NCBI GenBank assembly: GCA_958295905.1
Contig: OY282382.1
Location: 2,504,001-2,568,000, forward strand
DNA length: 64,000 nt
Direction: 5' to 3'
Source: an uncultured Vicinamibacterales bacterium
GTDB lineage: Bacteria; Acidobacteriota; Vicinamibacteria; Vicinamibacterales; UBA8438
The notes beneath the pieces were generated by a model. The model worked only from the letters and a program-made list of their open reading frames with translations. It was not told the DNA's origin and ran no database searches. The number at the start of each line of letters is the position of its first letter. Positions within the stretch are counted from its first letter, which is position 1. Shown here piece after piece: positions 38,271 through 50,424 of the stretch. A program made the translations under genes and the position numbers.

Positions 38271-38505
38271 TTGGCGGCGTTGGGGGCGGTCGGTGTTCGT
38301 GGCGGAAACGTCTGCGGAGCGCCGGTTGCGCGGTCATCTGCCGGCGGCGTGCCGTCCGCGGGGTCGTGGGCGGGCGCCGGGCTGCCGTCTGACGTATCTG
38401 CTGGAAGCGGCGTCGGGAGTGGCGGCGCCGGGTCGCGTCGAGCGAACGTGATAGCATGCCGCGTCCCATCCCGGAAGCGTCGTTACTCTTGAGGAGCAGG
38501 AGAAA

Positions 38506-39039
38506 ATGAGAATGCTCGTCGCGCTCTGCGTCCTGGCCGTGGCGGCCGTGGCCGCGGTGGGCGTCGGGGGAGCGGCCGCCCAGCCCTTGAAGGTCGGTGA
38601 CCCCGCGCCGGCGTTCAGTCTGCCGGGCACCGACGGCAAGACCCACCGCCTGTCCGACTATGCGGGCACGCCGGTGGTGCTGGCTTGGTTCCCCATGGCG
38701 TTCACCGGTGGTTGAACGGCCCAGTGCAAGTCGCTGCGTGACTCCAGCGACGCGTTGAAGGCCATCGACATGGCCTACTTCATGATCAGCGTCGACGACC
38801 CCGAGACGAACCGGCAGTTCGCGGAGTCGCTCGATTCCGGTTTTCCCTTGTTGAGCAACCCCACCCGAGAGGTCGCCGAGGCCTACGGCGTCGTGCCGGC
38901 CGGCCGCCGCTCGTTCCCGTCCCGCTGGACCTTCATCATCGGCGGCGACGGCAGAATCCTGCGGATCGACAAACGGGTCAACCCGTCGACGGCGGGGCGG
39001 GATCTGGTGGCGCACATGCGGGATCTCGGGCTCGACTAG
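38506..39039 (+). CDS. Secreted selenocysteine-containing peroxiredoxin
   Basis: One 177-residue reading frame interrupted only by TGA at 38713-38715 (codon 70). Read through, it gives [11 protein letters not shown][11 protein letters not shown], where Sec occupies the peroxidatic Cys position of the AhpC/TSA peroxiredoxin fold, with a second Cys at residue 74. Both sides of the TGA match the same family ([16 protein letters not shown] before; [16 protein letters not shown] after), so it is not two genes. A bSECIS hairpin follows at 38730-38751. The N-terminus is a signal peptide (cut near Gln26), so the enzyme would reduce peroxides outside the cytosol. GAGGAG ribosome site at 38491-38496. 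The stop TAG begins a family A element. Confidence 0.88.
38730..38751 (+). promoter_or_regulatory. Bacterial SECIS element of the peroxiredoxin gene
   Basis: Perfect seven-pair stem GTCGCTG / CAGCGAC with an eight-base loop CGTGACTC that has G then U at loop positions 2-3. The loop starts 21 bases after the TGA. A lower GGCC/GGCC stem (38718-38721 with 38760-38763) can extend it. Spacing and loop fit the bacterial SECIS consensus recognised by SelB. Confidence 0.8.
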
Positions 39040-49734: not shown

Positions 49735-49874
49735 ATTGTGCCAGATCGGACCTAAAACGATTCTACGGCGCAGACTCCCGGCCCGGAAATCGCCGCGGGG
49801 CGGCGCTCCACCAATCCTGCCGGGCGTCGGCGCCTCTTTTCACGAGGCGGCGCCGTTCTGCGGCGCGGACTTCC
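49735..49874 (-). repeat. Dispersed element A, copy 8 (composite)
   Basis: Minus-orientated composite: first part (49735-49777) matches, as reverse complement, the 45-base variant body and head of the double copy at 39037; second part (49778-49874) is a normal A body with the CGCCTC / GAGGCG hairpin and head. The last 12 codons of the UGSC gene are encoded by its head, and the TGA stop lies in its hairpin loop. Confidence 0.7.
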
Positions 49875-50424
49875 GGCGCGCGGTCAGCACGTGTTCGAGC
49901 TGCGCCGCGGCCTCCTTCGCCCGATCCTCGATCTCGTCCTCCGAGAGCGTGCTCAGGGGGTGGGTGATGACGATCGGCTCGAGGTCGTCGGCGCCGAGGG
50001 CGGCGCGTTGCGTCTCGGCTTCCTCAAGAAAGGCGGCGGTCACGATGACCGCGGTGGGGATTCCCCGCTGCTCCAGCCGGGCCGTGTCGTGCACACTGCA
50101 CGACGTGCACGACCCTCAATCTCCGATCGCGGTGACGACGACGTCGTTCTCGGCCGCGATCCGGTCGAGCAGGGCGTCGGTCGCCTCGCGCGAGAAGCTG
50201 TCTTTGACGTAGCGGTGGACTTCCGCCGGCTCGCAGGCGCCGGCGAAGGCGGCCGCGGTGTGCCGCAGCAGCCGCGACGCGTTCCACTTCGAGTTGTCCA
50301 GCACCCCCAGCCGCACGCCGCGGAGCGTCTCGGGCCGCGGGGCGAGCCGGATCTGCGCGGCGGTGACGGCGCCGCGCGGGTCGAACACGATCTGCCCGGA
50401 GGGCAGGGTCTGCTGACTGCTCAT
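49840..50424 (-). CDS. UGSC family selenoprotein
   Basis: One 194-residue frame interrupted by a single TGA at 50116-50118 (codon 103). Translated through, it reads VVVTAIGD-Sec-GSCTSCSVHDTARLEQ, giving the exact U-G-S-C motif (Sec103, Cys106, plus Cys109) that defines the UGSC family of selenoproteins. Sequence on both sides is family-like (APRPETLRGVRLGVLDNSKWNA before; GIPTAVIVTAAFLEEAE after). A hairpin with a three-base GUG loop follows (50086-50104). The biochemical role of the family is unknown; the Sec/Cys pair suggests redox chemistry. ATG 50424 follows a GGAG site and starts 22 bases after the 367-aa gene. Without Sec decoding it would be called two short ORFs. Confidence 0.88.
50086..50104 (-). 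promoter_or_regulatory. Bacterial SECIS element of the UGSC gene
   Basis: Perfect eight-pair stem GTCGTGCA / TGCACGAC with a three-base GTG loop starting 19 bases after the TGA. Because GTCGTGCA is directly repeated just upstream, an alternative nine-pair stem with a ten-base loop (stem 50113-50105 with 50094-50086) can also form, but it lies nearer the TGA than usual. Confidence 0.8.

Follow-up and report, generated by a model that had tools for sequence, protein, structure and literature searches.

The gene at positions 38506..39039 on the plus strand of the window (the whole stretch of 64,000 nucleotides analysed here) very probably encodes an exported peroxiredoxin of the Bcp/PrxQ-AhpE type, with selenocysteine (Sec70) at the peroxidatic position, which would be inserted via tRNA-Sec and SelB at a hairpin in the mRNA. 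Comparative sequence analysis strongly supports the decoding of the in-frame TGA as Sec, the presence of a SECIS element and the peroxidatic location of Sec: the source genome contains the decoding machinery, the TGA is conserved and the hairpin covaries. The interpretation as a Sec peroxiredoxin with a SECIS, put forward in an earlier note on this DNA, is thereby upheld.

The gene and its peroxiredoxin domain

The reading frame begins with ATG at 38506 and ends with TAG at 39037-39039; its translation comprises 177 residues including Sec70, and its single in-frame TGA is codon 70 (38713-38715). The read-through product matches the Pfam family AhpC-TSA over residues 30-151 (8.5e-31). Taken alone, the half preceding the TGA matches profile positions 1-39 (1.6e-9) and the half following it positions 42-121 (4.6e-13), i.e. 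consecutive parts of the same profile, hence both halves belong to one peroxiredoxin domain, as the earlier note had proposed. Its further claim that the TGA replaces exactly the catalytic Cys agrees with the finding of 13 natural homologues in which the codon aligned with codon 70 is TGC or TGT, encoding Cys.

The hallmark residues of the Prx (TxxU) motif are P63, T67 and U70, which together with Arg140 (38923..38925, plus strand) we take to occupy the catalytic positions known from peroxiredoxins. The arginine is invariant in 25/25 rows of alignment A1, and phmmer aligns it with an Arg of 3drn. T67 is present in all 49 Sec sequences and the motif Pro in 43 of them, in keeping with the PxxxTxxU pattern quoted for Sec peroxiredoxins (PMC13188914, accessible text). 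Replacements of the motif Pro comprise Leu in four orthologues from a single genus, g10 (L037, L039, L043 and L044), Thr in L042 and Ala in L124.

The predicted structure exhibits the peroxiredoxin fold (pLDDT 87.9), with structures of the Bcp/PrxQ and AhpE type (3drn, 5epf, 4x0x and others) as matches (Z ~22 over ~150 residues), which assigns the protein, by its modelled fold, to the Bcp/PrxQ-AhpE type of peroxiredoxins. Among the NCBIfam models listed, no equivalog cut-off was reached: the model peroxi_PrxU (NF040737) gives 41.7 bits (cut-off 270), which places the protein outside that equivalog, and the score for PrxQ/Bcp (NF006960) is 82.7 bits against a cut-off of 140, the similarity to the latter being one of fold.

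Predicted export and a candidate resolving cysteine

Residues 1-26 (38506..38583, plus strand) open with a short basic region, continue with an extended hydrophobic stretch and close with AAA-Q; they are predicted from hydropathy to form a signal peptide of the general secretory (Sec) type, with a guessed cleavage site. The maximum of mean hydropathy over 12 residues reaches 3.16 at residue 4. The earlier note had called the protein secreted; the N-terminal signal features stand, and we prefer the wording "predicted exported", as the assignment rests on hydropathy and sequence features. On these features the peroxiredoxin is probably exported, which in a diderm means a periplasmic location.

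The alternative that survives best, though we regard it as unlikely, is a Sec peroxiredoxin that is not exported, because its N-terminus serves as a membrane anchor or because translation begins at a downstream start. Lipoprotein-like boxes in a few homologues lend it some weight and indicate that the mode of anchoring may vary; in L066 from a Myxococcota MAG, for instance, a lipobox-like site points to a Sec lipoprotein in that one organism. Against non-export in general, 57/62 homologues reach a mean hydropathy of 1.8 or more in a segment of 12 residues near the N-terminus, while the five misses (L045, L069, L070, L123 and L124) are truncated by the contig or have an unsuited start choice, and two cytosolic paralogues used as controls lack such a segment (maximum 0.88). 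Non-export is further disfavoured by an AxA-like site, just past which most of the mature domains start, and by a purine-rich stretch resembling a ribosome-binding site (GAGGAGCAGGAG, 38491..38502, plus strand, found by inspection of the sequence), which precedes the ATG at 38506.

For the predicted exported enzyme, Cys74 (38725..38727, plus strand), located at Sec+4, is proposed from its conservation as the resolving residue. The position is occupied by Cys in 47/49 Sec sequences and 13/13 Cys sequences (Leu in L069 and L071), and no further Cys or Sec follows the peroxidatic position in 47/49 Sec and 13/13 Cys sequences. Cys74 is thus the likely resolving Cys, and in the structure model it shares the predicted helix 68-79 with Sec70; the two residues may form their selenenylsulfide after local unfolding. 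PrxQ/Bcp proteins have their resolving Cys at +5 and AhpE is in a 1-Cys state, in contrast to the Cys at +4 described here; the fold is shared with both, but their peroxidatic residue is Cys and not Sec. In the mechanism we envisage, the protein would leave the cytoplasm through the general secretory pathway, be freed of its signal peptide and then reduce extracytoplasmic peroxides. Oxidation would convert Sec70 to a selenenic acid, the oxidised residue would form a selenenylsulfide with Cys74, and some exported thioredoxin-like protein may then re-reduce this bond.

Recoding of the TGA codon

The putative bSECIS hairpin (38730..38751, plus strand) consists of two arms, GTCGCTG (38730-38736) and CAGCGAC (38745-38751), which form seven pairs and enclose the GU-containing loop CGTGACTC (38737-38744). 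It was described in the earlier note, and it lies within all bSECIS limits given in the accessible text of PMC13188914: a loop of 3-9 nt (here 8 nt), a stem of 4-16 bp (here 7 bp), a distance from the TGA of 16-37 nt (here 21 nt to the start of the loop), G in loop position 1 or 2 (here CG(T)) and MFE <= -7.5 (here -10.0 kcal/mol, a folding energy equalled by 1/200 shuffles). Taken alone, such a hairpin is weak evidence in GC-rich DNA, since a bSECIS-like filter is also passed at 30 of the 193 TGAs in the window that are flanked by at least 50 open codons on each side. Longer stretches around the hairpin fold little better than their shuffles (z -0.69 to -1.40), the 45-nt stretch no better (z -0.69), and ViennaRNA predicts an extra G-C pair within the loop, which would occupy the loop G. 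A search of the genome with Rfam SECIS_1, presumably a eukaryotic model, yielded no match, and neither did any control genome, which renders this null result uninformative; with lax thresholds, all Rfam matches around the gene were far below the gathering scores.

It is the conservation of the hairpin that raises it above chance. Orthologues are found in 25/28 genomes of the family, with 62-99% identity over the whole length and one TGA each (the three genomes without an orthologue are 83-89% complete), and in 25/25 cases the TGA falls on aligned codon 70. Among 167 windows of 11 codons in these 25 orthologues, the one spanning codons 71-81 shows the highest synonymous identity (0.89 vs 0.60 for the whole gene), and this maximum coincides with the position of the hairpin. 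With the loop in an unchanged position, 48/49 Sec sequences form six to eight contiguous pairs (mean 6.9; the exception, L112, has just four), compared with a mean of 3.7 at the corresponding place in the 13 Cys sequences, of which three have 6-7 and two have five contiguous pairs. The 3' arm occupies +30 to +36 after the TGA in the 25 sequences of the window's family and lies one codon earlier, at +27 to +33, in 24 other, more distant Sec sequences. In these 24, 98.2% of cells pair and both sides change at 5/7 pairs; their covariation score was reached by 0/500 shuffles, and no slid version came close. The covariation, together with the pairing kept, argues strongly for an RNA structure under selection, in accordance with the SECIS claimed in the earlier note. 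The shift of the 3' arm by one codon between families, with the pairing retained, represents a natural experiment on how a SECIS is reconciled with the protein sequence. The loop starts with CAG in L034 and L042 and with CGG in three other sequences, rather than with CGT, and the Sec relative L066, folded alone, adopts a different minimum-energy structure. L115, a Cys homologue from a genome without selA or tRNA-Sec, carries a 5-bp hairpin (CGCTG-cgcga-CAGCG) lacking GU at the SECIS place, possibly a remnant of a SECIS.

All four components of the decoding machinery were found in the source genome (G000, 6.3 Mb in 3 contigs), as the earlier note had suggested checking: selA (542 bits, cut-off 267.9), selB (332 bits in one frame, cut-off 242.25), selD (290 bits, cut-off 125) and selC, i.e. 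tRNA-Sec with the anticodon TCA (63 bits). The tRNA-Sec and SelB would insert Sec at the TGA, with SelB reading the hairpin in the mRNA. The selD gene (L018, C1:874147-875073 of the same genome) lies inside an open frame of 915 codons and is possibly a fusion.

Co-occurrence was analysed in a sample of 297 genomes of the phylum, 46 of which contain a close homologue. These account for 57 rows; 30 loci were fetched for them and the residue encoded there was read, while for the others the presence or absence of a stop is known. The search for tRNA-Sec covered 14 of the 46 genomes, namely three with a TGA copy that lack selA and the eleven without a TGA copy. All 35 genomes carrying a TGA copy possess selA (32) or tRNA-Sec (the other three). 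The eleven that lack a TGA copy divide into five with selA and six in which neither selA nor tRNA-Sec was found (Fisher test, uncorrected for relatedness: p 0.003 with selA alone, 5e-5 with selA or tRNA-Sec). In G177, G130 and G073, the three that combine tRNA-Sec and a TGA peroxiredoxin, selA gave no match at E 1e-60; the gap could be due to incompleteness of the genomes or to a diverged or different selA.

These data bear on three further explanations of the TGA. A genuine stop in a decayed or frame-broken gene, or between two fragments, would be in line with the use of TGA as a normal stop elsewhere in the genome (for example at the end of the UGSC gene described below), but all 25 family orthologues retain the exact TGA with the frame open beyond it and are similar over the whole length, and the genome encodes Sec machinery; we consider this explanation very improbable. 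Slightly less credit still is due to a reading of UGA that involves no selenium, by near-cognate read-through or by reassignment: as TGA also terminates genes here, it is not reassigned throughout, and Sec is the reading indicated by the covarying hairpin, by the tRNA-Sec and by a TGA that stands precisely in place of the catalytic Cys. A sequencing or assembly error for TGC or TGT, the codons seen in the Cys homologues, is excluded by the identical TGA in separate assemblies (25/28 family genomes), in other families and in other phyla. We therefore discarded a sequencing error, a pseudogene and a reassigned UGA on account of the TGA in the orthologues, the open frame and the TGA stops elsewhere, and retain Sec decoding; the two outcomes that the earlier note had named as contrary to it are absent, with the sel machinery present and TGA at the codon in every family orthologue.

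Relatives, known systems and other selenoprotein genes

The more distant Sec relatives come from Acidobacteriota, Myxococcota, one Planctomycetota MAG and one unclassified MAG, and the Cys homologues from Acidobacteriota, Myxococcota and Gammaproteobacteria MAGs. Apparent duplicates of contigs in the family set (L051-L062 and L064) were excluded from the counts, repeats of L029, L021 and L038 (L107-L109) were dropped, and more distant or partial sequences (L046-L050, L074-L106) were not counted as homologues of the subfamily. In a tree of 61 sequences, from which the partial L045 was excluded, the Sec/Cys state requires two changes, with Cys nested inside Sec under the midpoint root. Tentatively, and with somewhat more doubt than confidence, we speculate that the protein could be an ancient exported Sec peroxidase of Acidobacteriota, in which Sec would be the older state (under the midpoint root only) and Cys would have arisen on at least two branches, and that it may take part in a selenium-dependent extracytoplasmic defence against peroxides, with a likewise exported UxxC redoxin-DsbD_N fusion selenoprotein from the same genome (see below) as a possible reductant. 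Pairs of Sec and Cys enzymes inside one subfamily offer a direct test of the benefit of Sec in an exported peroxidase.

The first demonstration of a Sec-containing peroxiredoxin was reportedly made in Eubacterium acidaminophilum (Sohling 2001). Proteins of this type share with the present one the AhpC-TSA fold, the PxxxTxxU motif and the peroxidatic Sec, while the latter differs in its predicted signal peptide and in the likely resolving Cys at Sec+4. Among other enzymes, Sec is also carried out of the cytoplasm in formate dehydrogenase N, which uses Tat, and in DsbA/DsbG-like selenoproteins, all located outside the cytoplasm. That Sec peroxiredoxins are known already, as the earlier note said, is confirmed by the accessible texts of PMC9312934 and PMC13188914, in which TxxU Prx (COG1225/PF00578) is an established selenoprotein family. 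Marine metagenomes are rich in representatives, with 43 sequences in the Sargasso Sea (PMC1088965) and 253 sequences in the GOS data (PMC2398784), according to the accessible parts of these accounts, in which the terms "signal peptide" and "periplasm" do not occur. They share the TxxU motif and the broad family with the proteins described here, some of whose MAGs suggest a marine origin, and some of the marine sequences may already represent this subfamily. For Acidobacteria, the accessible text of PMC1794560, which also names the DsbA/DsbG-like families, reports 3 families with 4 selenoproteins.

A literature search, with most subscription journals outside its scope, did not turn up any description of a Sec peroxiredoxin that is exported, which is no proof of absence, and a search with the same limit (few subscription journals) found no selenoproteins reported for Vicinamibacter. 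TxxU Sec peroxiredoxins being long known, the distinctive feature appears to be the predicted export. What we regard as new is the subfamily, predicted to be exported and having Cys at Sec+4 as its likely resolving residue, which is distributed across Acidobacteriota with relatives in other phyla. It would extend the use of Sec to a peroxide defence, probably extracytoplasmic, in a large and mostly uncultured group, the Acidobacteriota, and genes of this kind would be split into two fragments by any annotation that halts at the TGA.

The gene order uvrB, HPRT-like gene, peroxiredoxin gene, tatA-like gene (on the opposite strand) and anion symporter recurs among relatives, where the names of the neighbours are those we take, by recall, to fit their sequences. 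This order was analysed for an operon-based function and revealed no obvious functional link.

The 30 TGAs of the window with open flanks and a hairpin were ranked by codon composition, and inspection of the best 14 by eye left two convincing candidates, the peroxiredoxin gene and a gene of the UGSC family on the minus strand (49840-50424, TGA at 50116-50118). The latter matches its Pfam family with 1.2e-56 and NCBIfam NF041046 with 149 bits (cut-off 125); its two halves match UGSC separately, and a 7-bp hairpin with an AGTGT loop lies 18 nt past the TGA. Elsewhere in the same genome, L152 (C1:4863800-4866800) contains an in-frame TGA in the motif SADWUPYC of its AhpC-TSA domain, which is fused to a DsbD_N domain, and has a hydrophobic N-terminus; to judge from these features it is likely another exported selenoprotein and possibly the partner of the peroxiredoxin. 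In L151 (C1:1708500-1710500) an in-frame TGA falls in the motif HLFULPC of a Prx-like sequence, likely a UxxC selenoprotein.
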